A stretch of DNA of 35,584 bases from Candidatus Gemmiger faecigallinarum (lineage in GTDB: Bacteria; Bacillota; Clostridia; Oscillospirales; Ruminococcaceae): contig DWVD01000059.1 in assembly GCA_019120395.1 (NCBI GenBank), positions 1 through 35,584 of the forward strand, in the 5' to 3' direction. The stretch's first letter is position 1. The number at the start of each line of letters is the position of its first letter. The position numbers and the translations under genes are program-made. The notes beneath the pieces are model-generated. The model searched no databases, was not told the DNA's origin, and saw only the letters and a list, made by a program, of their open reading frames with translations. Positions 15,644 through 29,991 of this stretch are shown here, in pieces.

Positions 15644-15679
15644 ATGAAACAGTCACACAGAACAGGAGGCGCGCGATGA
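15644..15679 (+). CDS. Possible 11-codon leader peptide
   Basis: A short ORF, MKQSHRTGGAR, with a good ribosome site (AAAGGAAG ending about 9 bases upstream) whose TGA stop overlaps the ATG of the ABC ATPase as ATGA. The ribosome site of the ATPase (AGGAGG) lies inside it. It could couple translation or be a chance frame; nothing is known of such a peptide. It is too short for codon statistics. Confidence 0.35.
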   Translation: MKQSHRTGGAR

Positions 15680-16722
15680 TAACGGTTGAGCATCTGACCA
15701 AATATTACGGCAGCTTTCTTGCCGTGGACGACATCTCCTTCGAGATCAACGAAGGCCACGTCTACGGCTTCCTGGGACCCAACGGCGCAGGAAAATCCAC
15801 CACCATGAACATTATGACCGGCTGCCTGTCGGCCACGTCGGGCCATGTGCGCATCGACGGGCACGACATTTTTGACGAGCCGGACCAGGCCAAAAAGCTG
15901 ATCGGCTACCTGCCGGAGCATCCGCCGCTTTACCTGAACGAATCCCCGCTGGAGTACCTGCGCTTTGTGGGCGAAGCCAAGGGCCTGCGCGGCGCCGAGC
16001 TGGACCGCCAGGTCGACGACGTGCTGCAAAAGACCGGCACCGCCGCGGTTAAAAACCGCCGCATCTCCAACCTTTCCAAGGGCTACCGCCAGCGGGTGGG
16101 CATCGCCCAGGCGCTTCTGGGCAGCCCGAAGGTCATCATTTTGGACGAGCCCACCGTCGGCCTGGACCCGCTGCAGATCATCGAAATCCGCGACCTGATC
16201 CGGGAGCTGGGCCGGACACATACCGTCGTATTCAGTTCCCACATCCTGTCCGAGGTGCAGACCATCTGCGACCAGATCCTGATGATTGCCAAGGGCAGGC
16301 TGGTGGCCTTTGACACCCCCGCCAACCTGGAGAAAAAGCTGCTGGCCCCCAACGAGGTCCGCCTGACCACCGACGCCGCCCCCGACGAGCTGCGGCATAT
16401 CCTGGCAAAGGTGCCGGCCATCTCGCAGCTGACGGTGGACCCGGATACCGGAAAATGGACCACCGCCCACATCAGCACCGACCGGGACGATATCTACGAG
16501 CTTTCCCGCGCCATCTATCAGGCGTTTGTGCCCGGCGATAAGGCCATTTTGGAGATGGCGCTGAAGAAGGGCACGCTGGAGGATGTGTTCATTGAGCTGA
16601 CCGAGTCCGAAAAGCCGGCCGCGGCCGCCCGGCCCAAGGCAGGGCGCAAGGCGGCAAAGCCGGCCGCCGGCCGGCCCGGCCCGCAGACCGGCGGGGACCC
16701 CGCCGAAGGAAAGGAGGCGTGA
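15676..16722 (+). CDS. ABC transporter ATP-binding protein (GldA-like)
   Basis: 348 residues. Walker A GPNGAGKST (34-42), signature LSKGYRQR (133-140, with LSKGY instead of LSGGQ, as is common in GldA/NatA-type ATPases), Walker B VIILDEP (153-159) and H-loop FSSHIL are intact. A C-terminal accessory domain follows, then an unusual Lys/Ala/Pro-rich tail from about residue 312 to the end, probably disordered. First large gene of a four-gene operon with an ABC-2 permease, a GldG-like protein and a DUF4340 protein. The ATG sits behind AGGAGG. Confidence 0.95.
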   Translation: MITVEHLTKYYGSFLAVDDISFEINEGHVYGFLGPNGAGKSTTMNIMTGCLSATSGHVRIDGHDIFDEPDQAKKLIGYLPEHPPLYLNESPLEYLRFVGEAKGLRGAELDRQVDDVLQKTGTAAVKNRRISNLSKGYRQRVGIAQALLGSPKVIILDEPTVGLDPLQIIEIRDLIRELGRTHTVVFSSHILSEVQTICDQILMIAKGRLVAFDTPANLEKKLLAPNEVRLTTDAAPDELRHILAKVPAISQLTVDPDTGKWTTAHISTDRDDIYELSRAIYQAFVPGDKAILEMALKKGTLEDVFIELTESEKPAAAARPKAGRKAAKPAAGRPGPQTGGDPAEGKEA

Positions 16723-16725
16723 CCC

Positions 16726-17589
16726 ATGGCAGCTGTATTCAAACATGAACTGCGGATGTACTTCCATTCGCTGACCGCCTACGTGTTCGGCGCGTTCCTG
16801 CTGGTGATCGTGGGCATCGGCGCCATGCTGTACAACCTGCAGGCCGCCGTCAGCAACTTTGAGTTTGTGCTCAGCTTTTCCAGCATCATCTACGCGGTGA
16901 TCGTGCCCATCCTGACCATGCGGGTCATTGCCGAGGAGCGCCGGCAGAAAACCGACCAGCTGCTCTACTCGCTGCCCATCTCCACCTTCCAGGTGATCGC
17001 GGGCAAGTACCTGGCGCTGCTGGTGGTGTTTGCCATCCCGCTGTGCATCATCGCCTGCTATCCGCTGATCTTCGCCCAGTTCGGCGAAGTCTACCTGCCC
17101 ACCAGCTACGGCTCGCTGCTGGCCTTCTTTCTGATGGGCGCGGCGCTGATTGCCGTGGGGGTGTTCATCTCGTCGCTGACCGACAACCAGGGCTTTGCCG
17201 CGGGCATCGGCGTGGCGGTGATCCTTTTGAACTATTTCAGCGTCACGTTGTCGGAATATGTCTCCTCCACCGCCCAGGGCTCGGCGCTGGCGCTGTTTGT
17301 GCTGGCCGCCGGGGTCGGGCTGCTGATCCATTACCTGACCCGCAACGACAACCTGGCCTGCGCCGTCGGCCTGATCCTGATGGCCGTGGTGGTCGTCTGG
17401 TACTTTGTGGACAGTTCCGCCTTTGAAGGCCTGCTGCCCAGCATTATGACCACCCTCTCGCTGTTCGAGCGGCTGGACGTGTTCGTCAACGGCGTGTTCG
17501 ATTTGACCGCCGTGACCTATTATCTGTCCGTAGCGGCGTTCTTCCTGTTTTTGTCGGTGCAATCGCTGGAAAAGAGGAGGTATAACTGA
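16726..17589 (+). CDS. ABC-2 type permease (GldF-like)
   Basis: 287 residues, about six transmembrane helices (near 20-36, 54-68, 92-112, 126-148, 153-172 and 186-202, plus one near the C-terminus). The stretch MRVIAEERRQKTDQLLYSLPIS between the second and third helices is the hallmark of the GldF/NosY-like ABC-2 group. The ATG follows AAAGGAGG, three bases after the ATPase stop; the stop overlaps the next gene by one base (TGATG). It should form the membrane channel with the ATPase; the cargo is unknown. Bacteroidetes relatives act in gliding and secretion; in Clostridia the role is unproven. Confidence 0.92.
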   Translation: MAAVFKHELRMYFHSLTAYVFGAFLLVIVGIGAMLYNLQAAVSNFEFVLSFSSIIYAVIVPILTMRVIAEERRQKTDQLLYSLPISTFQVIAGKYLALLVVFAIPLCIIACYPLIFAQFGEVYLPTSYGSLLAFFLMGAALIAVGVFISSLTDNQGFAAGIGVAVILLNYFSVTLSEYVSSTAQGSALALFVLAAGVGLLIHYLTRNDNLACAVGLILMAVVVVWYFVDSSAFEGLLPSIMTTLSLFERLDVFVNGVFDLTAVTYYLSVAAFFLFLSVQSLEKRRYN

Positions 17590-19046
17590 TGAGTGTGAAC
17601 AAAAAGCCCAAAAAGAAAAGCTCCCCCGCGCCGGTGCACAGCCAGGTGGCGCTGCTGGGCGGCTCCTACTCGCTGATCATCTCGGCGGTGGTGCTGGCGC
17701 TGCTGATCGTGGTCAACCTGTTTGTGTCCGCGCTGCCCACCACGCTGACCAAGTACGATATCAGCTCCACCCAGCTGTACTCCATCACCTCCAACACCAA
17801 GGTGGTGGTCAACGCCCTGGAGCAGGACGTGACCATCTACTGGGTGGTGCAGTCGGGCGAGGAGGACGACGTCATCGAGAACCTGCTGGGCAAGTACGAG
17901 AGCCTGTCCGACCACATCACCGTGGCCAAGCGCAACCCCGACGTCTACCCCACCTTTACCCAGCAGTACACTGACGAGGAGGTCCCCAACAACAGCCTGA
18001 TCGTCGAGTCCGGCGACCGCTACCGTTATATCAGCTATAACGACATCTACGTCACCGAGACCAACATGTACTCCTACACCTATTCCACCTCCTTTGACGG
18101 CGAGGGCGCCATCACCTCGGCCATCGACTATGTGGTCACCGAGGACCTGCCCCAGCTTTATGTGCTGGAGGGCCACGGCGAGGCCGAGCTGCCCTCCACC
18201 TTCTCTGACCAGCTGGAGAAGGAAAACTACGAGGTCAACACCCTGTCGCTTTTGACGGTGGACGAGGTCCCCGCCGAGGCCGACTGCGTATTGATCTACG
18301 CGCCCTCCACCGACCTTTCCGACGAGGAAGTGACCATGCTGGAGGATTACGTGGCCGGCGGCGGCAAGCTGCTGGTCAGCGCCGGCCCCACCGAGGACGG
18401 CACCCTGACCAACCTGTACAGCCTGCTGGAAAACTACGGCGTCACCGCGGCCGAGGGCATCGTGGTGGAAAGCGACCGCGAGCACTTCGCCTTCGGCGCG
18501 CCCTACGTGCTGCTGCCCGACCTGGCCAGCAGCGACGTGACCGACTCGCTGATCGACAAGAACTATTATGCGCTGATGCCCATCTCCCAGGGCCTGACGG
18601 TGGGCAGCACCGAGAACGGCACCGTCACCCAGCTGCTGACCACCTCGGACACCGCCTTCAGCAAGGCGGCCGGGTACAGCCTGTCCACCTACGACAAGGA
18701 GGACGGCGACATTGACGGTCCCTTTGCCGTGGGCGTCAGCATTGAGGACAACGGCGGCGGCAAGATCGTCTGGTTCAGCTCCTCGGTCTTTTTGGAGGAT
18801 ATGTACAACGCCTATTCCTCCGGTGCCAACGTGGACATGGCCATGAACGCCCTGTCCAGCCTGGTGGGCGAGCGGGAGGCCATCGCCATCCGCTCCAAAT
18901 CGCTGAACTACAACTACCTGACCATCAGCGACTCCGCCTCCTCGGTGCTGAAAGGCCTGATGATCGGCGTGTTCCCGCTGGGCTACCTGGCCGTCGGCAT
19001 CGTTGTGATCGTAAGAAAAAGGAAGGTGCAAAATGAAGCGGTATAA
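17589..19046 (+). CDS. GldG-like ABC auxiliary protein
   Basis: 485 residues. A short lysine-rich cytoplasmic tail, a transmembrane helix (about 27-48), a large extracytoplasmic region, and a second helix near the C-terminus (about 457-478) followed by a basic tail. The middle has the fold seen in GldG/ABC_transp_aux proteins: QLYSITSNTKVVVNALEQDVTIYW near residues 61-85, then LPQLYVLEGHGEAELP and ADCVLIYAPSTDLSDEE, which resemble the IFT52/GldG domain. It starts by TGATG overlap with the permease stop behind GAGGAGG, and overlaps the next gene by 14 bp. It likely forms the outer part of the transporter complex. Confidence 0.88.
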   Translation: MSVNKKPKKKSSPAPVHSQVALLGGSYSLIISAVVLALLIVVNLFVSALPTTLTKYDISSTQLYSITSNTKVVVNALEQDVTIYWVVQSGEEDDVIENLLGKYESLSDHITVAKRNPDVYPTFTQQYTDEEVPNNSLIVESGDRYRYISYNDIYVTETNMYSYTYSTSFDGEGAITSAIDYVVTEDLPQLYVLEGHGEAELPSTFSDQLEKENYEVNTLSLLTVDEVPAEADCVLIYAPSTDLSDEEVTMLEDYVAGGGKLLVSAGPTEDGTLTNLYSLLENYGVTAAEGIVVESDREHFAFGAPYVLLPDLASSDVTDSLIDKNYYALMPISQGLTVGSTENGTVTQLLTTSDTAFSKAAGYSLSTYDKEDGDIDGPFAVGVSIEDNGGGKIVWFSSSVFLEDMYNAYSSGANVDMAMNALSSLVGEREAIAIRSKSLNYNYLTISDSASSVLKGLMIGVFPLGYLAVGIVVIVRKRKVQNEAV

Positions 19047-20454
19047 ACGGATCATTGCCCTGCTGGCCGTGCTGGCGGTGGCCTGCGTCGCCACCTTTGC
19101 CGTCTCCCGCTATGAGGCGCACAAAGAGGAGATCCAGAACAGCGACGAGGTGATTTTGGAGATCGACCCCGACGCCGTCACCGCCCTGTCCTGGAGCTAT
19201 GACGATACTTCCCTCTCCTTCCACAAGGACGAGACCTGGCAGTACGACGGGGACGCGGCCTTCCCGGTGGATGCGGACAAGATCGCCGGCCTGCTGGACC
19301 AGTTTTCCCAGTTCGGCGTCTCCTTCATCATCGAGAATGTGGAGGACTACGCCCAGTACGGCCTGGACGACCCCACCTGCACCATCGACCTGACCGCCGG
19401 CGATACCAGCTATACCATCAAGCTGGGCGATTTCAGCCAGATGGACGAGGAACGCTATGTGGACATCGGCGACGGCAACGTCTACCTGGTGTCGGACGAC
19501 CCCATGGACAAGTTCGAGGTGGAACTCAGCGACCTGATCGACGACGACGAGCTGCCCGACTTTGAGCAGGTGTCCCACATCACCTTTGCCGGCGCCCAAA
19601 GCTACACCGTCACCCGTGAGGAGGACAGCGGCAAGAGCTACTCGGCCGAGGACGTCTATTTCAATCAGGACGGCCAGCCGCTGGACACCGCGCGGGTCAA
19701 CAGCTACCTGTCCAACATCAGCAGCCTGAGCACCGACGAGTACGTCACCTACAACGCCACCGACGAGGAACTGGAACAGTACGGCATGAATGACCCCGAA
19801 CTGACCGTGACGGTGGATTACAGCCGCGAGAACGAGGACGGCGAGACGGTCAGCGACACGTTTGTGCTGAACATCGCCCGCGCTCCCGGCGACCGCGCCA
19901 CGCTGGAAACCGCCGACAGCGACGACGCCGACAGCTCCGACAGCACGGCGTCCGACGCTGCCGACAGCATCGAGGCTTACCTGCGGGTGGGCGAGTCCCA
20001 GATCATCTACAAGCTGGACGGCGCCGACTTTACCGCGCTGATGGAGGCTTCCTACGACGATCTGCGCCATCAGGAAGTGTTCTGGGGCGACTTTGCCGAC
20101 GTGACCCAGCTGGACATCGAGCTGGAGGGCACGACCCACACCATCACCTCCACCGGCTCCGGCGAGGATCGGGTCTACTCCTACAACGATGCAGAGATCG
20201 ACCTGTCCGGCATCCAGACCGCGGTGGAGTCGCTGACCGCCGACAGCTTTACGACCGAAGCCGCCTCCGGCCAGGAGGAGATCGCGCTGACGCTGCACCT
20301 GGACAACGAGGACTTCCCCACCGTGACCATCCGGCTGACCCGCTATGACGGCAGCCTCTGCCTGGCCGAGGTGGACGGCGAGAGCGTCTGTCTGGTCAGC
20401 CGCTCGGCCGCCATGAACTTGGTGGAAGCCGTGCAGGCCATCGTACTGAATTAA
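19033..20454 (+). CDS. DUF4340 domain membrane-anchored protein
   Basis: 473 residues. One N-terminal membrane helix (about 7-24) anchors a long, very acidic extracytoplasmic region. Repeating DUF4340 elements can be seen (ALSWSYDDTSLSFHKDETWQYDGD; VDADKIAGLLDQFSQFG; YAQYGLDDPTCTIDL and, again, EQYGMNDPELTVTVDY), so at least two copies are present. A low-complexity Asp/Ser/Ala linker lies at about residues 293-312. The ATG follows AAGGAAGG inside the GldG-like gene, overlapping it by 14 bp. DUF4340 proteins go with GldFG-type ABC genes; no activity is known. It is the last gene, before a very strong terminator. Confidence 0.88.
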   Translation: MKRYKRIIALLAVLAVACVATFAVSRYEAHKEEIQNSDEVILEIDPDAVTALSWSYDDTSLSFHKDETWQYDGDAAFPVDADKIAGLLDQFSQFGVSFIIENVEDYAQYGLDDPTCTIDLTAGDTSYTIKLGDFSQMDEERYVDIGDGNVYLVSDDPMDKFEVELSDLIDDDELPDFEQVSHITFAGAQSYTVTREEDSGKSYSAEDVYFNQDGQPLDTARVNSYLSNISSLSTDEYVTYNATDEELEQYGMNDPELTVTVDYSRENEDGETVSDTFVLNIARAPGDRATLETADSDDADSSDSTASDAADSIEAYLRVGESQIIYKLDGADFTALMEASYDDLRHQEVFWGDFADVTQLDIELEGTTHTITSTGSGEDRVYSYNDAEIDLSGIQTAVESLTADSFTTEAASGQEEIALTLHLDNEDFPTVTIRLTRYDGSLCLAEVDGESVCLVSRSAAMNLVEAVQAIVLN

Positions 20455-20697: not shown

Positions 20698-22572
20698 GTG
20701 ATCTATCACGTATTGCAGTCCGCCCCTGCCGGCGGCGACGGCAGCGCCCGGCGGCCGTTTTCAACCATTTCCCAGGCGGCCGCGCTTGCCATGCCCGGCG
20801 ACACCGTCCAGATCGGCGACGGCGTCTATCGGGAATGGGTGCGCCCCCGCAACGGCGGCCTGGGCAACAATCAGCGCATCACCTACTGCAGCGCGCCCGG
20901 CGCGCATCCCGTCGTCAGCGGCGCCGAGCTGCTGGAGCGCTGGACGCACGACCGGGGGCAGGTCTGGCGCGCCGAGGCGGACAACGCCCTGTTTGGCAGC
21001 TACAATCCCTACGCCGACGAGATCTTTGGCGACTGGTACGACGGCCTGGGCCAGGCCCACCACACCGGCGAGGTATTCCTGAACGGCGAAGCCCTGTACG
21101 AGGCCGCTTCCCTTGCGGCGTTGTACGAGCCGCCCGCCTCGCCCGAAAAGGCGCTGCGCTGGTTTGCCCAGTCGGAAGGCAGCCGCACCGTCTTTTACGC
21201 GGATTTCGGCGGGCAGGACCCCAACGGCGGCTGCGTCGAAATCAGCGTGCGCCCCTTCTGCTTTTTCCCGCAGCAGACCGGGCTGAATTACATCACCGTC
21301 CGCGGCCTGACCTTCTGCCAGGCCGCCACCCAGTGGGCACCGCCCACCGCCTTCCAGCCCGGCGCCGTCGGCCCCCACTGGAGCAAAGGCTGGATCATCG
21401 AGGACTGCGTCGTCCACGACTCCAAGTGCTGCGGCATCAGCCTGGGCAAAAAGCGGGACATCCGGGACAACGCCTGGTCGCTGGACCCCGCCAAGGGCGG
21501 CACGCAGACTTATACCGAACTGATCTTCTCCAACCTGCGGGACGGCTGGAGCAGGGAGTCCGTCGGCGGGCACATCGTCCGCAACAACGAGATCTACAAC
21601 TGCGGGCAGTCCGGCATTGTGGGCTGCATGGGCGGCGCTTTTTCCACCATCACCGGCAACCACATCCACCACGTCAACCTGCGGGGCGAATTTTCCGGCG
21701 CCGAGATGGCCGGCATCAAGCTGCATGCCGCCATCGACGTGGTGATCGAGCACAACATCATCCACGACTGCTGCAAGGGCATCTGGCTGGACTGGGAGGC
21801 CCAGGGCGCGGCCGTGCGCCGCAACGTGCTGTTCCGCAACGACCGCGAGGAGGACCTCTTTCTGGAGGTCTGCCACGGCCCCTGCCTGGTGGAAAACAAC
21901 GTCCTGCTTTCAGCGCGCAGCTTTTTGAACGTGTCCCAGGGCACCGCCTGCGTCCACAACCTGTTTGCCGGCAAGATCCTGGCCGTGCCGGACACCAACC
22001 GCTTTACCATGTATCATCTCCCCCACAGCACCCAGGTGGGCGGCGTGATGCTGATTTACGGCGGCGACGACCGCATGCTTTACAACATTTTTATCGGCAG
22101 CGACCGCGAAGTCTGGCAGGACGGCGCTTACGGCACTGCCTGCTATGCCGATTACAGCCACGAGGCCGCCGCCAAAACCATGGAAAACGACACCCCCGCC
22201 GCCGATCTGGGGCGCACCCTGCCTGTGACGGCGCGGGAAAACCTGTATCTGAACGGCGCGCAGAGCTGGGCCCACGAGGCCGACCCGCACGCGCTGCCGG
22301 ATTTCTGCGCCCGCGTCTCGGTGGAGGAGCAGGACGGCCATTTCTGGCTTTGCACCAACCTGGACGAGATCGCCGACCAGCTGGACGGCTGGCGGGTGGA
22401 CCGGGTGACCACCGAGCTGCTGGGCACGGCGTTTGAGCCCGGGCAGCCCTTTGAGAACCGGGACGAAAGCCCCCGCGTGGTGGACGCCGACCTGACCGGC
22501 CTGCCCCGCCCCAAAAAGACCTGCATCGGTCCCTTTGAGGGGGCCGCCTGCCGCCGCATCCTGCTGGTGTGA
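20698..22572 (+). CDS. Right-handed beta-helix protein, probably carbohydrate-active
   Basis: 624 residues, GTG start behind AAGGAGG. The N-terminus (GDGSARRPFSTISQAAALAMPGDTVQIGDGVYREWV) is a DUF1565-type entry to a right-handed parallel beta-helix. The middle has helix rungs such as HIVRNNEIYNCGQSGIVG, HIHHV and VVIEHNIIHDCCKGIWLDW, with many conserved His, Asp and Glu residues suited to catalysis. The layout recalls beta-helix glycosidases such as GH141 (fucosidase/xylanase members) or related families; this is a suggestion, not proof. No signal peptide or anchor is seen, so it should act in the cytoplasm on imported oligosaccharides. It has its own promoter and terminator and no sugar transporter beside it. 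Confidence 0.82.
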   Translation: MIYHVLQSAPAGGDGSARRPFSTISQAAALAMPGDTVQIGDGVYREWVRPRNGGLGNNQRITYCSAPGAHPVVSGAELLERWTHDRGQVWRAEADNALFGSYNPYADEIFGDWYDGLGQAHHTGEVFLNGEALYEAASLAALYEPPASPEKALRWFAQSEGSRTVFYADFGGQDPNGGCVEISVRPFCFFPQQTGLNYITVRGLTFCQAATQWAPPTAFQPGAVGPHWSKGWIIEDCVVHDSKCCGISLGKKRDIRDNAWSLDPAKGGTQTYTELIFSNLRDGWSRESVGGHIVRNNEIYNCGQSGIVGCMGGAFSTITGNHIHHVNLRGEFSGAEMAGIKLHAAIDVVIEHNIIHDCCKGIWLDWEAQGAAVRRNVLFRNDREEDLFLEVCHGPCLVENNVLLSARSFLNVSQGTACVHNLFAGKILAVPDTNRFTMYHLPHSTQVGGVMLIYGGDDRMLYNIFIGSDREVWQDGAYGTACYADYSHEAAAKTMENDTPAADLGRTLPVTARENLYLNGAQSWAHEADPHALPDFCARVSVEEQDGHFWLCTNLDEIADQLDGWRVDRVTTELLGTAFEPGQPFENRDESPRVVDADLTGLPRPKKTCIGPFEGAACRRILLV

Positions 22573-22707: not shown

Positions 22708-22725
22708 CCGGCCGGGTGATTGTTT

Positions 22726-23394
22726 ATGAAACAGATTTTGATCGTGGAAGACGAGCCGGACATCCAAGAGCTGCTCTGCGCCTATCTGCGGGACGCCGGA
22801 TACGGGACCGCCGCGGCCGGGGACGGCGTGGCCGCGCTGGACCTGTTCCGGTCCCGGCCCTTTGACCTGGTCCTGCTGGATATCCTGCTGCCCAAGATCG
22901 ACGGGTTTGGCGTCTGTGAGCTGATCCGCAGGCAATCGCAGGTGCCGGTTTTGATGCTGACCGCGCTGGAGGGCGAGGCCGAGCAGCTCCGCGCCTTTGG
23001 CCTGGACGCCGACGACTATGTAACAAAGCCGTTTTCCATCCCCGTGCTGCTGGAAAAGATCCGGGTGATCCTGCGGCGGCACGGCGGCGCGCCGGGGGAC
23101 GCCCGGCTGCGCTACCGGGACCTGCTGATCGACCCGGACGCCCGGGAAGTCCTGCTGGACGGGCGGCCGCTGGAACTGACCGCCCGGGAATTTGAGCTGC
23201 TGCGCACCTTCCTTGCCGCGCCGGGGCGGGTGTTCACCCGCGAGATGCTGCTGGCAAAGCTGTGGGGCTACGATTTTTACGGGGACGAGCGGGTGGTGGA
23301 CAGCCACATCAAAAACCTGCGCCGCAAGCTGGAGCGGGATTATATCGAGACCGTCAGGGGGGTGGGGTACCGTGTTGCGAAAGAAAGCTGCTGA
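22726..23394 (+). CDS. OmpR/PhoB-family response regulator
   Basis: 222 residues from the ATG at 22726; a TTG two codons earlier is less likely. Receiver: VEDEPD acidic cluster, phosphoacceptor Asp52 (VLLDILLPKIDG), LMLTAL, Lys in DDYVTKPF. Winged helix: LTAREFELLRTFL, REMLLAKLWG, ERVVDSHIKNLRRKL and VRGVGYRV. The ribosome site (GGGTGA) is weaker than those of its neighbours. The kinase gene overlaps its end by 23 bp, and the ABC genes downstream are the likely regulon. Confidence 0.95.
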   Translation: MKQILIVEDEPDIQELLCAYLRDAGYGTAAAGDGVAALDLFRSRPFDLVLLDILLPKIDGFGVCELIRRQSQVPVLMLTALEGEAEQLRAFGLDADDYVTKPFSIPVLLEKIRVILRRHGGAPGDARLRYRDLLIDPDAREVLLDGRPLELTAREFELLRTFLAAPGRVFTREMLLAKLWGYDFYGDERVVDSHIKNLRRKLERDYIETVRGVGYRVAKESC

Positions 23395-24856
23395 GAGCCT
23401 GACCGTCCGCATCTTCCTGAGCACCGCCCTCCTGCTGCTCTGCGCGGGGGGCATCACCTTTGGTCTTATCGCCTGGGCCACGCCCAGCATCTACACGGCC
23501 GTGATCACCGAGGACCTGGCGCAGCAGGCGGACCAACTGGCCCAAAAGCTGGCGGGCGCCCGCCTGGCCGACAGCGGCCCGCTGCTGGACGACTTTATCC
23601 GCGCCTCCGGCGCCGATGCGATGCTGGTCGGCCCGGACGGGCAGATCGCCGAGACCGGCTCGCAGCTTGCCGTCCGCGCGCTGTATCCGGACGGCGGCGG
23701 GCTTGCCGCCTTTTCCGGGGACAGCTCCGCCGCCACTTACGCGTCGGATGTGGCGGGGGCGCAGGACGAGGTGACCGTCACCCTGTCGGAGCAGGCCTCT
23801 ATTACCGCACAGGTCCGGTTTGCCGACCAGTCCGGCGCCTATCTGCTTTCGGTGGCGCCGCGTCTGGAGGCAAAGAACCAGGCGGTGCAGGCGCTGGCCC
23901 AGACCGCGCCCTGGCTGCTGCTGGTGCTGCTGGCGTTCTCTCTGCTGTGCGCGCTGGCCTATTCGCGCTATATCGCCCGCCCCGTCGTCCGGCTCAGCGG
24001 CATCGCAGAAAAGATGGCCCGGCTGGATTTCAACTGGGAATGCGGGGAAAAGCGCCGGGACGAGATCGGCAGGCTGGGCCGCAGCCTGGACGAGATGGCG
24101 CGGCGGCTGTCCGCCTCGCTGGAAGCGCTGGAGGTGGCCAACCGCGCGCTGCGGGGGGAGGTGGAGCAGGAGCGGGAGCTGGACCGCCAGCGGATGGCCT
24201 TCTTTTCCGCTGCCTCCCACGAGCTGAAAACGCCGGTGACCATCTTGAAAGGCCAGCTGTCCGGCATGCTGGAGGGGGTCGGCGTGTACCGGGACCGGGA
24301 CAAATACCTGCTGCGCGCGCTCCAGGTTGCCGGCCGGATGGAGGTCCTGGTCCGGGAGCTTTTGACCGTTTCCCGCATGGAGAGCGGTCCCGCCGGCGTC
24401 CGGCAGGAAACGGTGGATCTGGCCGGGCTTGTCCAGCGGCAGCTGGCGCTGGACGCCGAGCTGTTTGCGCAGCGCCGCCAGCATCTGTCCCGGGAGCTGG
24501 CGGCGGGGCTCAGCGTGACCGGGGACGCCGCCCTGCTGGGCAAAGCGGTCGGGAACCTGCTGTCAAACGCCGCCCTGTACTCCCCGCCGGGCGCGCAGGT
24601 GCGGGTGTGGTGCGGCCTGCGGGACGGCCGCCCCACGCTTACGGTGGAAAACAGCGGGACGCAGATCCCGCCCAGCGCCCTGCCCCATCTTTTCGAGGCC
24701 TTCTACCGGGCGGACGGTTCCCGCAGCCGCAGCACCGGCGGCAGCGGCCTGGGCCTGTACCTCGTGCGCCGGATCCTGGACCTGCATCGGGCCGACTGCA
24801 CCATCGAAAACACCGGGCGCAGCGTGCTGGCCACCGTCCGTTTTGCCGCGGGATAG
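23372..24856 (+). CDS. Sensor histidine kinase with extracytoplasmic sensor
   Basis: 494 residues. The start is a GTG at 23372 behind GGGGGGTGGGG, overlapping the regulator end by 23 bp; a TTG follows directly as alternative. Transmembrane helices at about 13-36 and 179-198 flank a 140-residue extracytoplasmic domain, probably a PAS/Cache-like fold (ADAMLVGPDGQIAETGSQ). Then HAMP (199-250), phosphoacceptor box ASHELKTPV (His283), N box NLLSNAALYSPPG, a degenerate G1 (ENSGTQIP rather than DxGxGIP) and G2 GSGLGLYLVRRI. The G1 change is also seen in VanS/BceS-like kinases of Clostridia. It is the only kinase of the three here with a real sensor domain. Confidence 0.94.
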   Translation: MLRKKAAESLTVRIFLSTALLLLCAGGITFGLIAWATPSIYTAVITEDLAQQADQLAQKLAGARLADSGPLLDDFIRASGADAMLVGPDGQIAETGSQLAVRALYPDGGGLAAFSGDSSAATYASDVAGAQDEVTVTLSEQASITAQVRFADQSGAYLLSVAPRLEAKNQAVQALAQTAPWLLLVLLAFSLLCALAYSRYIARPVVRLSGIAEKMARLDFNWECGEKRRDEIGRLGRSLDEMARRLSASLEALEVANRALRGEVEQERELDRQRMAFFSAASHELKTPVTILKGQLSGMLEGVGVYRDRDKYLLRALQVAGRMEVLVRELLTVSRMESGPAGVRQETVDLAGLVQRQLALDAELFAQRRQHLSRELAAGLSVTGDAALLGKAVGNLLSNAALYSPPGAQVRVWCGLRDGRPTLTVENSGTQIPPSALPHLFEAFYRADGSRSRSTGGSGLGLYLVRRILDLHRADCTIENTGRSVLATVRFAAG

Positions 24857-24956: not shown

Positions 24957-24987
24957 GCGCCCCGGGAGATCCTCCACACAAAACACA

Positions 24988-24993
24988 TATAAA
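24988..24993 (+). promoter_or_regulatory. Candidate -10 box of the third ABC operon
   Basis: TATAAA 66 bp before the ATPase ATG. No -35 match at 17 bp (GGAGAT). The sequence just upstream has repeated ACACA words. The missing -35 box would fit control by the neighbouring regulator. Confidence 0.35.
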
Positions 24994-25059
24994 ATCCAGC
25001 TTTGCTCCACACAGCGCCGGTATCCTTGCCTTATCCCAAACAGAAAGGAACAAGGCAAT

Positions 25060-25929
25060 ATGGACATTTCGATTCAAAACGTCAGCATGACTTACCCTTC
25101 CGGGAAGCAGGCGCTGAAAGGGCTGGACCTGCAGCTGCGCGCGCCCAGTCTGGTCGGCTTGCTGGGCCCCAACGGCGCGGGCAAATCCACGCTGATGAAG
25201 CTGCTGGTAACGGCTTTGCTGCCCACCGGCGGCGCCATCCTGATGGACGGGCAGCCGCTGGACAAGGCCGAGCGGCTGCTGAAATCCCGGCTGGGCTATC
25301 TGCCCCAGGATTTCGGCCTGTTCGACGAGCTGACCGTGACCCAGTTTTTGGATTACATGGCGGCGCTGAAAGGCGTGCCCGCCCCCGCGGCCGCGATCCG
25401 GAAAGCCGTCTGCGCGGTCAACCTGGAGGACAAGGCCAGGGCCCGGCTCCGCACCCTGTCCGGCGGCCAGCGCCAGCGGGTGGGCATCGCCCAGGCGCTT
25501 CTGGGCGACCCGCCCCTGCTGATCTTCGACGAGCCTACCGTGGGCCTTGACCCGGAGGAGCGCATCCACTTCCGCAACCTGTTTTCCCGTGCCGCCCAGG
25601 ACCGGCTGGTGCTGCTGTCCACCCACATCATCGAGGACGTGCAGTCGGTGTGCGACCAGATCGTGGTCATCCACCACGGGCGGATCCTGTTTGCCGGCAC
25701 GCCGGAACAGCTGATCCGGCGCGCCGACGGCCATGTGGGCGTATTTTGGGAAAAGGACGCCGTACGGGAACAGGGGCTGCATATCACCGCCCGGGTCAAC
25801 ACCAGCCGGGGCATCCGCTGCCGCGCGGTGGCGGACGCCCTGCCCGCCTGTGCCCGGCCGGAAGAGCCTACGCTGGAGGACGCCTACCTCTACCTGATCC
25901 ATCTCAATTCCGGGGAGGCGCTGCAATGA
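25060..25929 (+). CDS. ABC transporter ATP-binding protein
   Basis: 289 residues from the ATG at 25060 behind AAAGGAA; longer in-frame readings run into the kinase region and the terminator. Walker A GPNGAGKST (36-44), Q-loop LPQDFGLFDELTV, signature LSGGQRQR (133-140), Walker B LLIFDEP (153-159) and H-loop LSTHIIED are intact. The C-terminal region (about 215-289) is the accessory domain common in BcrA/NatA-like ATPases. Its stop overlaps the start of the permease-peptidase gene as ATGA, showing tight coupling. It likely serves both membrane proteins downstream. Confidence 0.95.
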   Translation: MDISIQNVSMTYPSGKQALKGLDLQLRAPSLVGLLGPNGAGKSTLMKLLVTALLPTGGAILMDGQPLDKAERLLKSRLGYLPQDFGLFDELTVTQFLDYMAALKGVPAPAAAIRKAVCAVNLEDKARARLRTLSGGQRQRVGIAQALLGDPPLLIFDEPTVGLDPEERIHFRNLFSRAAQDRLVLLSTHIIEDVQSVCDQIVVIHHGRILFAGTPEQLIRRADGHVGVFWEKDAVREQGLHITARVNTSRGIRCRAVADALPACARPEEPTLEDAYLYLIHLNSGEALQ

Positions 25930-28115
25930 AAACGATCCGCCTGTTTTTGCCGGAGCTGGGACGTCTGCTGCAAAGCCGCCCCACCTGGCTTGCGCTCCTG
26001 CTGACGGTGCTTTCCCCCGCGGCAGGGCTGATTTTGTACAACCCCGCCACCGCCGACACCATGCTCTCGGCTTACCTGGCCAATCCGGCCCTTGCGGGCG
26101 GCGTGGCGGGCGGCGTCCTCTTCGGCCTGCTGACCGTGTTTGAACTGGACCGGGTCGGCCGCAGCCGCGCGGAGCTGCTGGTCGACGCGGCGGTATCGCC
26201 GCTGGCCATGGCGCTGGTGCGTCTGGCGGCGCTTTTGACAGCGGCGGCGCTGGCCGCCGCCCTTACCATGCTGGCATGGCTGCCCGTCAGCATGGCGCTG
26301 ATCGGCGCGGTCTTTGACGCCGTCGACTATCTGCTGGCCTACCTGCTGCTGATGGGGCTGGCTCTGCCGCTGGCCGTCCTGGCGGCGGCCGCCGCCTTCC
26401 AGTTCACCTGCCGCGCCGACCTGTCCCTGGTGCTGTTTGCCGCTTTTGCCGCGCTGAGCCTGACGGTCTGGGCGGACGACTGGCAGCTGTGCTGGCTGAA
26501 CCCCTGCGTGTGGGCGCTTTCGGACGATTTTTCCAACTTTCGCATCTTCCGGTCGGTGGCCTGGATGCGCCTGACCTGGCTGGCCGCCCTGGCCGGGGTA
26601 TGGGCGGCGTCCTTCCTGTGCATCCGGCAGCACGGCAGGGGGCTGGCAGGCTCGCTGGCGCACAGCGTCCGGCATGTCTGCCGCCCCGCGGCGGCGCTGC
26701 TTCTGCTGGCCGCTTCCGCCTTTGCCTACTGCGCCCAGCCCCTGGTGGACAACAGCAATCCCGACCAGACGGTGATGACCTTTGCCCAGATCCCCTACGC
26801 GGAAAATGTGGTCTGCACCGGCCGCAGCGCCCAGGTATTCCCGGACACCGCCGCGGGGACTGTTTCCGGCAGGGCGACCTATCAGTTCCATAACACCTCC
26901 GGCCAGCAGCAGAAAGCGGCTTTCGGCATCACGCCGGGTTACGCCGTCGCCTCTGTGCAGGCAAACGGCGCCGACGTTCCCTTCTCGGTAAGCGATTACC
27001 AGGAATACAACGAAGCCCTGCTGGAGGTCACCCTGCCCGCCGACGAACAGGTGGAACTGACCGTGTCGTACAGCGGCTTCCCCCGCGAAAACCGGAACCT
27101 TGCCGTCATGCAGGGCGGCAAGGAGATCAGCGGGGAATATCTCTGCCTGGAAAACGCCGCCCTTGCGCCCCGGCTGATGAACGTCCCGCCCGATGAGACC
27201 GGGTATGACGCTGCCATCGAAGTCACCCTGCCCGCCGCCATGACGGCGATCCCCTTTGGGGCCAGCGAGGCCGAGGTCGTGGCCGAGAACAGCGACGGCA
27301 CCAGGACCTGGCGCTACACCACCGGCAGCCTTGGCGGGATCCTTTATGCGGGCGACTATGTCCGCGAGGAGATCCAGGCCGGCGGCATGACGATCGACTT
27401 TTACTACGGCCGCAGGCACCAGCCCGTCATGGAAGCCGCCGGGGCCGCGGATGCGGTCCGGGCGGTGGTGGAGTACTGCACCGGTCATTACGGCCCGCTG
27501 TCTTTCGGCGCGGGCGGCAGCCTGAAGCTGATCCAAAGCCGCGTGACCGGCGGCGGGTACGCGGCAAACGGCGCAAGCCTGCTGGACGAAGCGGATTTTA
27601 CCGCCGACAACCTGGGCGACGCCAGCAAGGGCGCAGCCGCGGGCGAGGTCATGATCCACGAGCTGGTGCATCAGTGGTGGGGCCTGGGCAATATGTTCGA
27701 CAGCTCGGACGCTGCAAGCCCCTGGTCGGCCGAGGGTCTGACCGTCTATACCACTTACCGCATCGTCCGGGAGCTGTACGGCGAGGCCTATGCCCGGCAG
27801 CACTACATCGACGCCTGGCAGCAGGCGGTGGACGACTATTATCAGAACTTTTACGTCCGCAATCCGGAATATCTGGCCATGCTGCCGGCCGAAAAGCAGC
27901 TGGAGATCTCCAACGACCTGCGTTACGTACGGCAGTATTGCGAGATGCCGCTGAAAATTTTGAAAGCCGAGCAGCTGGTGGGCGGCGAACAGGCCATGGA
28001 TCAGATCCTTCAGCGCCTGTTCACCCGGGAGCTGGATCCCCTGGCCCCCTATCTGACCTATCAGGATTTCCTGGACGCCTGCGGGCTGACGGAGGAGGCG
28101 CTGGACCTTGTTTAA
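25926..28115 (+). CDS. ABC permease fused to an M1-like zinc peptidase domain
   Basis: 729 residues in one frame. N-terminal half: seven hydrophobic helices (about 20-38, 57-74, 96-125, 134-158, 166-183, 211-232, 253-270) of ABC-2 permease character. C-terminal half (about 275-729): a beta-rich segment, then a gluzincin domain with HELVHQWW (His578, Glu579, His582) and SAEGLTVY, whose Glu603 is the likely third zinc ligand. The HEXXH to Glu gap is 20 residues (M1 enzymes usually have 18), and no GxMEN motif is seen; GGGYAANG takes its place. An odd number of helices should put the peptidase outside the cell if the N-terminus is inside. The start overlaps the ATPase stop (ATGA). Substrate unknown. 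Confidence 0.9.
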   Translation: MKTIRLFLPELGRLLQSRPTWLALLLTVLSPAAGLILYNPATADTMLSAYLANPALAGGVAGGVLFGLLTVFELDRVGRSRAELLVDAAVSPLAMALVRLAALLTAAALAAALTMLAWLPVSMALIGAVFDAVDYLLAYLLLMGLALPLAVLAAAAAFQFTCRADLSLVLFAAFAALSLTVWADDWQLCWLNPCVWALSDDFSNFRIFRSVAWMRLTWLAALAGVWAASFLCIRQHGRGLAGSLAHSVRHVCRPAAALLLLAASAFAYCAQPLVDNSNPDQTVMTFAQIPYAENVVCTGRSAQVFPDTAAGTVSGRATYQFHNTSGQQQKAAFGITPGYAVASVQANGADVPFSVSDYQEYNEALLEVTLPADEQVELTVSYSGFPRENRNLAVMQGGKEISGEYLCLENAALAPRLMNVPPDETGYDAAIEVTLPAAMTAIPFGASEAEVVAENSDGTRTWRYTTGSLGGILYAGDYVREEIQAGGMTIDFYYGRRHQPVMEAAGAADAVRAVVEYCTGHYGPLSFGAGGSLKLIQSRVTGGGYAANGASLLDEADFTADNLGDASKGAAAGEVMIHELVHQWWGLGNMFDSSDAASPWSAEGLTVYTTYRIVRELYGEAYARQHYIDAWQQAVDDYYQNFYVRNPEYLAMLPAEKQLEISNDLRYVRQYCEMPLKILKAEQLVGGEQAMDQILQRLFTRELDPLAPYLTYQDFLDACGLTEEALDLV

Positions 28116-28827
28116 GATTTTTCGATACGAATGGAAACGTTTTGTGTGGAATCGGTTCTTTTTCGGGCTTCTGCTGGTGCTGCTGTTTTACGGCTGGCAG
28201 GTCCTGGACCGCGTGACCATCCTGGGGGTCTCCCACACCGCCCCCTTTTCCCCCTGGAGCTTCGGCGACTATCTGAGCCGGGTGTTTCCGCTTTTGTGGG
28301 TCGGGACGCTGTTTTTCCTGACCTTTTTCACCTCCGCAAGGGCGCGGCGCGCCGCCATGCTTACCGACGCCGCGTCCGCTCCACCCCGGCGCTACGCCCT
28401 TGCGCGGTGTTCCGCCGCCCTGGCCGCCGTCTGTCTGCTGGCGCTGGCCTGCCTGCTGGAGGCCGCCCTGTTCTACGGCCGCTACTTTGGCTGGCATGAC
28501 TGGGAAACGCTTGCGCTGCCCGCCCTTGTCGCCCTGGCGCCGCCGCTGGTGTTTGCGCTGGGAAGCGGCTGGCTGCTGGGCCGGGTGCGCCCCTGGCTGC
28601 TTTATGTCTGGATGCTGGTCCCGTTTGTCTGCCGGGCGCTCCCCCTACCCGACGCGCTGGGCCTGTGGGACGGCAGCTTTTTTACCGAGTATCCCCTGAC
28701 GGCGTCAGCGCCTGACCCGGACTTTGTCCTGCCGCTGTCCGTCCTGCCGGCCCAGGCCGCATTGCTTGTTGCAGGCGCAGCGCTGCTTGCCCTGCCCGTC
28801 CGCCCCGCCGGGCGCGGGCGGGCCTGA
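28108..28827 (+). CDS. Second ABC permease-like membrane protein
   Basis: 239 residues with about six hydrophobic helices (near 18-33, 60-76, 100-122, 133-155, 158-175 and 210-230). The start is a TTG at 28108, overlapping the end of the peptidase-permease gene by 8 bp and preceded by GGAGGAGG at good spacing; no ATG fits better. The N-terminus FKIFRYEWKRFVWNRFFFG is typical of ABC-2 permeases of antibiotic-resistance and bacitracin-type systems. It probably pairs with the upstream permease to make a heterodimeric channel driven by the ATPase at 25060. A terminator follows. Confidence 0.82.
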   Translation: MFKIFRYEWKRFVWNRFFFGLLLVLLFYGWQVLDRVTILGVSHTAPFSPWSFGDYLSRVFPLLWVGTLFFLTFFTSARARRAAMLTDAASAPPRRYALARCSAALAAVCLLALACLLEAALFYGRYFGWHDWETLALPALVALAPPLVFALGSGWLLGRVRPWLLYVWMLVPFVCRALPLPDALGLWDGSFFTEYPLTASAPDPDFVLPLSVLPAQAALLVAGAALLALPVRPAGRGRA

Positions 28828-28946: not shown

Positions 28947-29861
28947 TCAATAGCACAGCGCGATCAGCACCGGCACCAGCGCCGAGCAGATCATGCCGTT
29001 GAGCACCGCAAAAACCACCGTCTCCTCGCTGGTGTAGCGCACCAGCATGGGCAGGGTGGTATCCTCGCTGGTGGCCGCCGCCGGGGCGATGCAGGTATAA
29101 CCGTTGAGATGGCGCGCAATGTAAGGGATCATAAAAAAGGAGCCGATCTCCCGCATCAGGTTGCTCAAAAATGCGATGCTCCCTATCTCGGCGCCCGCCA
29201 GGCCGCTGATGGTCACGCCGGCTAGGCTGTACCAGCCCAGCCCGCTGGCGATCGAGACCGCCAGGTTGACCGGATACCCCAAAATCAGCCCGCACAGGGC
29301 GCCGCCCAGCAGCGACCCCGCCACGATCCCGCCCGGGATCAGTAAGATCCGGACATGGTATTGCCGTATGCTGGCCCAAAGCCCCCGGTGCATGCCCACG
29401 CTGACGCCCACCGAGAACATCAGCAGGTACAAAAGCCACTGGGTGTGCGCCGTCAGCGGCGTCAAAACCCCGGCCGCCGCAGGGAACGCCCCGCAGGCAA
29501 CGCCCAGCAGCAGCGCGCCAAGGGCCAAAAACAGCATCGGGTCCACCGCGGCGCGCCCGGCGGTCCCGCCGCCGGCGGAGGCAGGCGTGCCGGACGCCCC
29601 GCTCCCCGGAAGAAACCACCGGGTCAGAGCATACACCACCGCGACCGAGCACAGGGTCGGGAGCAGGAAAAACAGGAGTCCCCGCGCCCCCAAAAACGCC
29701 AGCTCCGAAAAAAAGCCGTCCCGCTGACCCAGACTGACCCCCATGGAGAAGATCAGCAGCAGGGTGCAAAAAAGCTGCACCCGCTCGTTGTTCGCCTTCT
29801 GCCCCGCGGGGAAAACGCGCCCCGCCAGCATCCCGGCCGCCATAAATCCAAGTGTTTCCAT
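28947..29861 (-). CDS. LysO family (DUF340) membrane exporter
   Basis: 304 residues, about eight hydrophobic helices. The family region GLGWYSLAGVTISGLAGAEIG with FLSNLMREI (about residues 207-239) matches LysO, which exports lysine in E. coli; the ending with EETVVFAVLNGMI also fits. A Gly/Ala/Ser-rich loop at about 86-104 separates the two halves. The chosen ATG (29861) begins with the first helix METLGFMAAGMLAG; longer frames add a charged tail with no support. The ribosome site is a GGGGGG run about 12 bases upstream. It has its own promoter (29963-29991). The substrate (lysine, a toxic analogue or another amino acid) is unproven. Confidence 0.88.
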   Translation of the reverse strand: METLGFMAAGMLAGRVFPAGQKANNERVQLFCTLLLIFSMGVSLGQRDGFFSELAFLGARGLLFFLLPTLCSVAVVYALTRWFLPGSGASGTPASAGGGTAGRAAVDPMLFLALGALLLGVACGAFPAAAGVLTPLTAHTQWLLYLLMFSVGVSVGMHRGLWASIRQYHVRILLIPGGIVAGSLLGGALCGLILGYPVNLAVSIASGLGWYSLAGVTISGLAGAEIGSIAFLSNLMREIGSFFMIPYIARHLNGYTCIAPAAATSEDTTLPMLVRYTSEETVVFAVLNGMICSALVPVLIALCY

Positions 29862-29962
29862 TGCTGCTTGCCGCCCCCCTGCTGCGCCCCGCCATGCAGA
29901 CGCAGGCGGGGACGTTCCGGCCGCCGCCCGGCATCCTGCGGCCGGGGCACGGCGGCCTGGGT

Positions 29963-29991
29963 ATGCTAACATGCCGCCGCCAAAATGTCAA
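29963..29991 (-). promoter_or_regulatory. Promoter of the LysO-like gene
   Basis: Minus strand: perfect -35 TTGACA (29986-29991), 17-bp spacer, -10 TAGCAT (29963-29968). The -35 contains the TGA stop codon of the lactonase gene. No lysine-riboswitch-sized leader fits; the leader is about 100 bp. Confidence 0.65.

Follow-up and report, generated by a model that had tools for sequence, protein, structure and literature searches.

Why would a bacterium tether a peptidase to a membrane transporter and turn it away from the cytoplasm? The question is raised by a gene at positions 25926-28115 of the forward strand of a 35,584-nucleotide stretch of DNA from Candidatus Gemmiger faecigallinarum (assembly GCA_019120395.1, contig DWVD01000059.1), hereafter the window, whose product is, judged by its sequence and predicted structure, a permease with an M1-like metallopeptidase domain on its outer side. 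The gene is part of a module whose members run in the order response regulator, histidine kinase, ATP-binding cassette (ABC) ATPase, permease-M1 fusion, and second permease. An initial annotation had placed such a transporter beside a two-component system and listed peptide-antibiotic immunity among its possible roles; the regulator and kinase genes do lie upstream, and peptide resistance is kept here as the likeliest role of the module.

The fusion protein and its fold

The frame at 25926-28115 (+) is open throughout and translates without interruption into 729 residues. In the AlphaFold2 model, seven membrane-length helical stretches (132-144 and 146-161 being counted as one), all within residues 18-269, precede a soluble domain of about residues 284-729. 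The loop charges are mostly consistent with a cytoplasmic N-terminus and an M1 domain outside, so the seven helices and external domain of the initial annotation are largely borne out. The structural comparison with M1 enzymes that it had suggested likewise returns an M1 fold in the peptidase domain (predicted local distance difference test score, pLDDT, 88). The Pfam Peptidase_M1 model matches the fusion at E 4.4e-6 with 26.9 bits against a cut-off of 27.7; in a genome search it reached 29 bits and was the only Peptidase_M1 match in the host draft genome (2.58 Mb, 122 contigs, ~83% complete).

Relatives were collected by a scan of genome contigs, in which 155 pattern matches yielded 123 stretches encoding relatives, the best 80 of the 123 being kept. 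Alignment A1 holds 64 of the 81 candidates formed by these 80 loci and the window; left aside were 10 whose match starts after residue 1, six that are cut or broken, and L013, which equals L012, and one of those excluded, L078, has a stop within the matched stretch. All 64 members match Peptidase_M1 at E <= 0.01. Apparent tandem fusion genes in L107 were rejected as a feature, since the upstream copy includes a stretch of unread bases, duplicates the downstream one, and may be an assembly effect; the intact downstream copy alone was used.

The window comes from a draft of 122 contigs, which lends some color to the idea, allowed for from the start, that an assembly or frame error joined two genes. 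Full-length fusions nevertheless recur in many independent Clostridia records, including cultured strains and the complete genome L032, and because so many independent copies exist, such an error is refuted to the point of a negligible residual chance. The membrane half is harder to classify. No Pfam permease family matches the fusion or the second permease, and ABC2_membrane_3 gives a marginal hit (E 0.62) in one of 28 second permeases; the two permeases show weak profile similarity to one another (probability 35%, E 0.0004). The assignment of the fusion as an ABC permease rests on its gene order with the ATPase.

An active site without the amine anchor

The motif HELVH lies at residues 578-582 and the downstream Glu603 follows with 20 residues between, at the positions first reported. 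A Tyr at the M1 active site has a catalytic role, and Tyr671 occupies its position. His578, Glu579, His582, Glu603, Tyr671 and Glu555 are all invariant in 72 of 72 Bacillota fusion proteins, a set that combines the 64 members of A1, the window included, with six more from alignment A2 and two later additions. The initial annotation had named a fold without a zinc site as the outcome that would overturn it; what is found is a predicted M1 fold whose zinc ligands are identical throughout this set.

The GxMEN motif, by contrast, is absent, as had been noticed: the window fusion has GGYAANGASLLDE in the corresponding region, and Ala546 stands where the motif Glu would be. Across the fusion proteins this column holds Ala in 71 of 72 and Met in the other, whereas it holds Glu in 11 of 12 unfused M1 proteins of the same phylum, all 12 of which keep HExxH, the Glu ligand, and the Tyr. 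(This contrast set came from 13 loci, L089 being dropped as a near copy of L088.) One study proposes that the GxMEN Glu binds the substrate amino terminus (PMC10343166). The spacing of the zinc site, which the initial annotation had also counted as a departure from ordinary M1 aminopeptidases, does not hold up as a diagnostic and was dropped as a mark of a new enzyme, since it varies from 16 to 23 inside the family (20 in 58 of 72 proteins, 18 in two). Loss of the Glu is thus, at the level of sequence, a real departure from the M1 norm and the spacing a minor one. Because the amine-binding residue is lost, ordinary aminopeptidase action appears unlikely; catalysis as such is plausible, but it is implausible that ordinary peptides are trimmed from their N-termini.

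One unfused M1-like protein, at L083 (1-2634, minus strand), shares the loss of the GxMEN Glu (it reads GVGMAAD) and extends far past the catalytic part.

The module and its genes

The OmpR-type response regulator (22720-23394, +; Response_reg and Trans_reg_C) is followed by a sensor histidine kinase (23399-24856, +) with Pfam HAMP, HisKA, and HATPase_c domains and, by hydropathy, two membrane helices that enclose about 130 extracytoplasmic residues. The 289-residue ABC ATPase (25060-25929, +; ABC_tran, E 6.5e-33) obtains its best NCBIfam scores with GldA, a PQQ-system model, and DrrA, every one below its cut-off. The ATPase and fusion genes share 4 nt, where the stop of the one meets the ATG of the other, and the gene for the 239-residue second permease (28108-28827, +) begins before the fusion gene has ended.

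This arrangement is widely kept. Among the 80 kept loci, the ATPase is upstream in 76 and the second permease downstream in 76; of the loci wanting one of these neighbors, seven are truncated where the stretch ends (for the second permease L015, L063, and L078), and L009 has a short piece only. Where about 4 kb of upstream sequence was at hand, the ATPase adjoins the fusion in 58 of 58 loci and a same-strand kinase lies upstream in 51, with at least 44% identity to the window's in 47; many loci also carry a same-strand relative of the response regulator upstream, at 50-85% identity. Two of the seven loci without an upstream kinase (L028 and L073) have a sensor pair downstream on the other strand, and in the other five (L010, L026, L031, L046, and L076) no sensor pair of the window's type was found.

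Some loci also carry cargo genes. Among 58 loci with an upstream kinase, the gap between kinase and ATPase is below 600 bp, with no room for cargo, in 41 and above 600 bp in 17 (the gap of about 2.1 kb at L021 is counted from the main kinase match, its class being unchanged). Cargo was identified in 14 of these 17, L007, L058, and L080 being the other three; the window carries none. The cargo comprises CAT-family O-acetyltransferases at nine loci, four of them near-copies, alpha/beta hydrolases at nine, including the same four near-copies, VanZ at two (near-copies), and one GNAT and one transglutaminase-like protein; the CAT relative that was tested scored 210.4 of the 270 bits of the CatA cut-off. 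Since it sits upstream of the promoter element described below, the cargo is not read from that element, and it offers circumstantial support only for a resistance setting.

A conserved promoter element

Between kinase and ATPase, at 24972-25026 (+), lies a conserved element of four 11-bp half-sites, CTCCACACAAA, ACACATATAAA, ATCCAGCTTTG, and CTCCACACAGC, followed by GCCGGTATCCT, which contains the -10-like TATCCT. In 73 loci including the window (a set that contains copies, L012/L013 and L005/L111), it usually extends from 88 to 34 bases ahead of the ATPase start codon. A matrix built from the element scores 70.8 at the window site, the sole match in the window and the sole one above 8, and a degenerate pattern allowing up to 2 mismatches occurs once in the host draft genome. 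No second independent match above 18 was seen in any of 86 loci, and none of the shuffled upstream sequences, one shuffle each, scored above -10.7. The element scores above 25 in 64 of the 73 loci, these counts being descriptive, as the matrix was trained on the same related sequences.

The loci can also be sorted by their neighboring genes. All 57 loci with a window-type sensor pair have the element, where window-type means at least 56% identity for the regulator or 44% for the kinase, thresholds chosen after the scores were known. Nine loci with other regulators have the element in one case, a weaker variant in four, and neither in four. These observations agree with a dedicated site at which the response regulator probably binds.

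At L016, L017, L018, and L029, a divergent kinase (36-41% identity) accompanies a variant promoter repeat upstream of the ATPase, and here site and regulator look as if they had changed together.

Spread within and beyond the Bacillota

The fusion was sought in even draws of genomes from the host's family, class, and phylum. It was spanned in nine of 148 genomes of the family draw (E 1e-30; one in two contig-end pieces, one with a doubtful second copy), in six of 196 of the class draw (one in two pieces; any match in 18), and in three of 398 of the phylum draw (E 1e-15), the host's own genome included each time. In an earlier phylum draw 15 of 199 genomes matched, the host's own holding the only spanned fusion, and the one other genome of the host genus among those listed has no fusion. 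A quick tree required 13 changes of family label against a minimum of five, with 16 rows unlabelled, which alone is no proof of transfer. The loci L012 (Pseudoflavonifractor) and L013 (Flavonifractor) are identical over 10,178 bp, although both come from one isolate series and contamination is possible for both; L015 (Fournierella) is identical over 6,163 bp. Plasmid and phage sequences gave no match to the query protein P0001 at E 1e-5. An integrase scan of six genomes found 5 to 32 matches each, from which no link to the module is drawn. In an anti-phage library the fusion and the second permease had no match, and the ATPase, kinase, and regulator had weak or generic ones only.

A weak plasmid match (E 0.1) began the trail to ABC-M1 fusions in Gemmatimonadota, Bacteroidota, Acidobacteriota, and Pseudomonadota. 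Five of 30 matched plasmid records were examined, from Hymenobacter, Granulicella, Pseudoalteromonas, Zymomonas, and Gemmatirosa (the last unannotated). The fusions are annotated in three of the four phyla, as M1 family aminopeptidase, ABC transporter permease, or hypothetical protein. All five resemble the window fusion in placing membrane helices before a C-terminal M1 domain and in lacking the GxMEN Glu (Ala in three, Ser in two). Four have an ATPase gene alongside, as in the window; the Granulicella stretch, where the gene table is incomplete, has no annotated ATPase adjoining the fusion. A histidine kinase gene is likewise near the Hymenobacter fusion, together with a LytTR regulator, and the Pseudoalteromonas one. 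These proteins are longer (1,016-1,222 residues, with 10-12 hydrophobic segments before M1) and apparently hold both permease halves in one chain, whereas in the window the second permease is a separate gene. The zinc site is kept in four of the five. Annotation therefore already records the general kind, of which the split-permease, sensor-linked form is a variant; no study of ABC permease-M1 fusions was found in the titles and abstract beginnings of the open-licence literature among the matches listed.

On the Zymomonas mobilis plasmid pZZM404 (L123, 1881-4931), a fusion behind two ATPase genes reads RExxR at the zinc site; its alignment is less sure, and it is likely a catalytically dead relative.

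Comparison with known systems

In layout the module matches the Cpr type of lantibiotic-resistance system (CprABC-RK, with its LanFEG relatives), to which a peptidase has been added; this type shares with the module an ATPase, two unlike permeases, and two-component control, and its kinase has an extracellular loop similar in size to that of the module kinase (PMC5786555). Each Cpr permease has six helices and lacks a peptidase domain, unlike the window fusion with its seven helices and large domain. LanFEG ATPases carry an E-loop in place of the Q-loop, whereas the window ATPase reads GYLPQDFG and keeps the Gln. The Nsr operon of Streptococcus agalactiae (the NSR peptidase, NsrFP, and NsrRK) also sets a sensor pair, an ABC transporter, and a membrane-associated peptidase against nisin, but its peptidase is a separate S41 serine enzyme and its transporter is of the BceAB type (PMC5583591, PMC8003753). 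The FtsX-type permease of BceAB and Nsr has a large loop between helices 7 and 8; the window fusion, with seven helices and a C-terminal domain, has no FtsX match. By family models the transporter belongs to neither system, and by analogy it probably works in the manner of both.

On the peptidase side, the M1 aminopeptidases ERAP1, LTA4 hydrolase, and EryP share the fold, HExxH, third ligand, and catalytic Tyr with the window fusion, which differs in its missing GxMEN Glu, variable spacing, fused permease, and a chain that ends soon after the catalytic part. C39 transporters likewise join peptidase and transporter in one chain (PMC10885120). Theirs is an N-terminal cysteine peptidase, with an ATPase domain in the same chain; neither is present in the window fusion.

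Mechanism and alternatives

The mechanism that we tentatively place first, while holding it slightly less likely than not, is an inducible, Cpr-like export and surface proteolysis of antimicrobial peptides. At its core would be a heteromeric ABC exporter of one ATPase and two unlike permeases, one of them bearing an M1-like zinc peptidase domain outside. The sensor kinase would detect a peptide-like envelope threat, and the response regulator would then bind the four 11-bp repeats and switch on the transporter operon. The transporter may pull the peptide out of the membrane or off lipid II, for the tethered domain to cut at the cell surface. Since the Glu that would hold a free N-terminus is missing, the domain would be expected to cut inside the chain, or to take blocked or cyclised peptides as substrates, instead of trimming ordinary N-termini.

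Several observations weigh against this mechanism. AplP and NosP, M1 peptidases for which endopeptidase activity is described, are bifunctional, and NosP retains GAMEN (PMC10885120, PMC13039773), so endoproteolysis does not require loss of the Glu. The lantibiotic-protection ATPase model TIGR03740 gives the window ATPase 134 bits against a cut-off of 309.75. The element is present in six of seven loci without a sensor gene in the examined stretch, the cargo upstream of it resembles enzymes that modify small antibiotics, and the loss of the zinc site in Zymomonas means that fused M1 domains need not be catalytic.

The last point also speaks for a different and distinctly less probable reading, that the M1-like domain is a non-enzymatic external receptor or gate, binding a peptide and handing it to the transporter or the kinase. 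In its favor, the amine-anchoring Glu is lost throughout the family, and the zinc-less Zymomonas fusion keeps its architecture; however, the metal ligands, catalytic Glu, and Tyr are invariant in the 72 Bacillota proteins even where identity falls to about 28%, a constancy that suggests selection for chemistry. Somewhat less probable again is that the module pumps out non-peptide antibiotics or envelope poisons and that the M1 domain has a side role. The cargo at 14 of 58 loci and the daunorubicin-resistance model DrrA among the three best scores of the ATPase speak for it, but in 41 of the 58 the gap is too short for cargo, the window is likewise without it, its place is ahead of the promoter element, and the conserved peptidase domain would be left unexplained.

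Export could also serve maturation: a transporter that processes its own peptide product outside would be a mirror image of the C39-peptidase transporters, and M1 peptidases such as AplP do process lanthipeptides (PMC10885120). We consider this improbable, as a search for precursor genes next to the module recognised none: there is no convincing conserved family of small open reading frames, and the three largest such families (18, 17, and 17 loci) overlie the promoter region and occur on both strands, as would be expected of conserved non-coding DNA. More improbable still is that food or recycled peptides are digested at the surface for uptake, a task for which a peptidase outside the cell and a neighboring transporter would be suited; a Pfam search of the five module genes, but not of the flanks, found no substrate-binding protein, and the best-scoring models for the ATPase are exporter-like.

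Export and surface proteolysis of antimicrobial peptides can be extended to the whole group, although here the proposal becomes speculative and its truth doubtful. ABC-fused M1 domains may form a distinct class of membrane-tethered endopeptidases without N-terminus recognition, which would cut antimicrobial or cyclised peptides during their extraction by the exporter, under one dedicated peptide-induced promoter, and would have spread among gut bacteria by transfer.

Other genes of the window

A second ABC system on the same strand (15676-20454) comprises an ATPase, an ABC-2 permease, an ABC_transp_aux protein, and a DUF4340 protein, a layout that we take to recall the gliding-associated transporter of Bacteroidota. 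It is followed at 20698-22572 by a right-handed beta-helix protein with a glycoside hydrolase 120 insertion domain. On the minus strand, a lysine exporter LysO-like gene (28947-29972) adjoins the module.

Significance

Gut Clostridia face host defensins and bacteriocins, and to our knowledge how they withstand these is understood for few species. If the proposed mechanism is true, the module would represent a resistance system that couples the extraction of a peptide to its destruction, and it would supply a first function for the ABC-M1 fusions of several phyla. Their present annotation as aminopeptidases is doubtful, given that the amine-binding Glu is lost.
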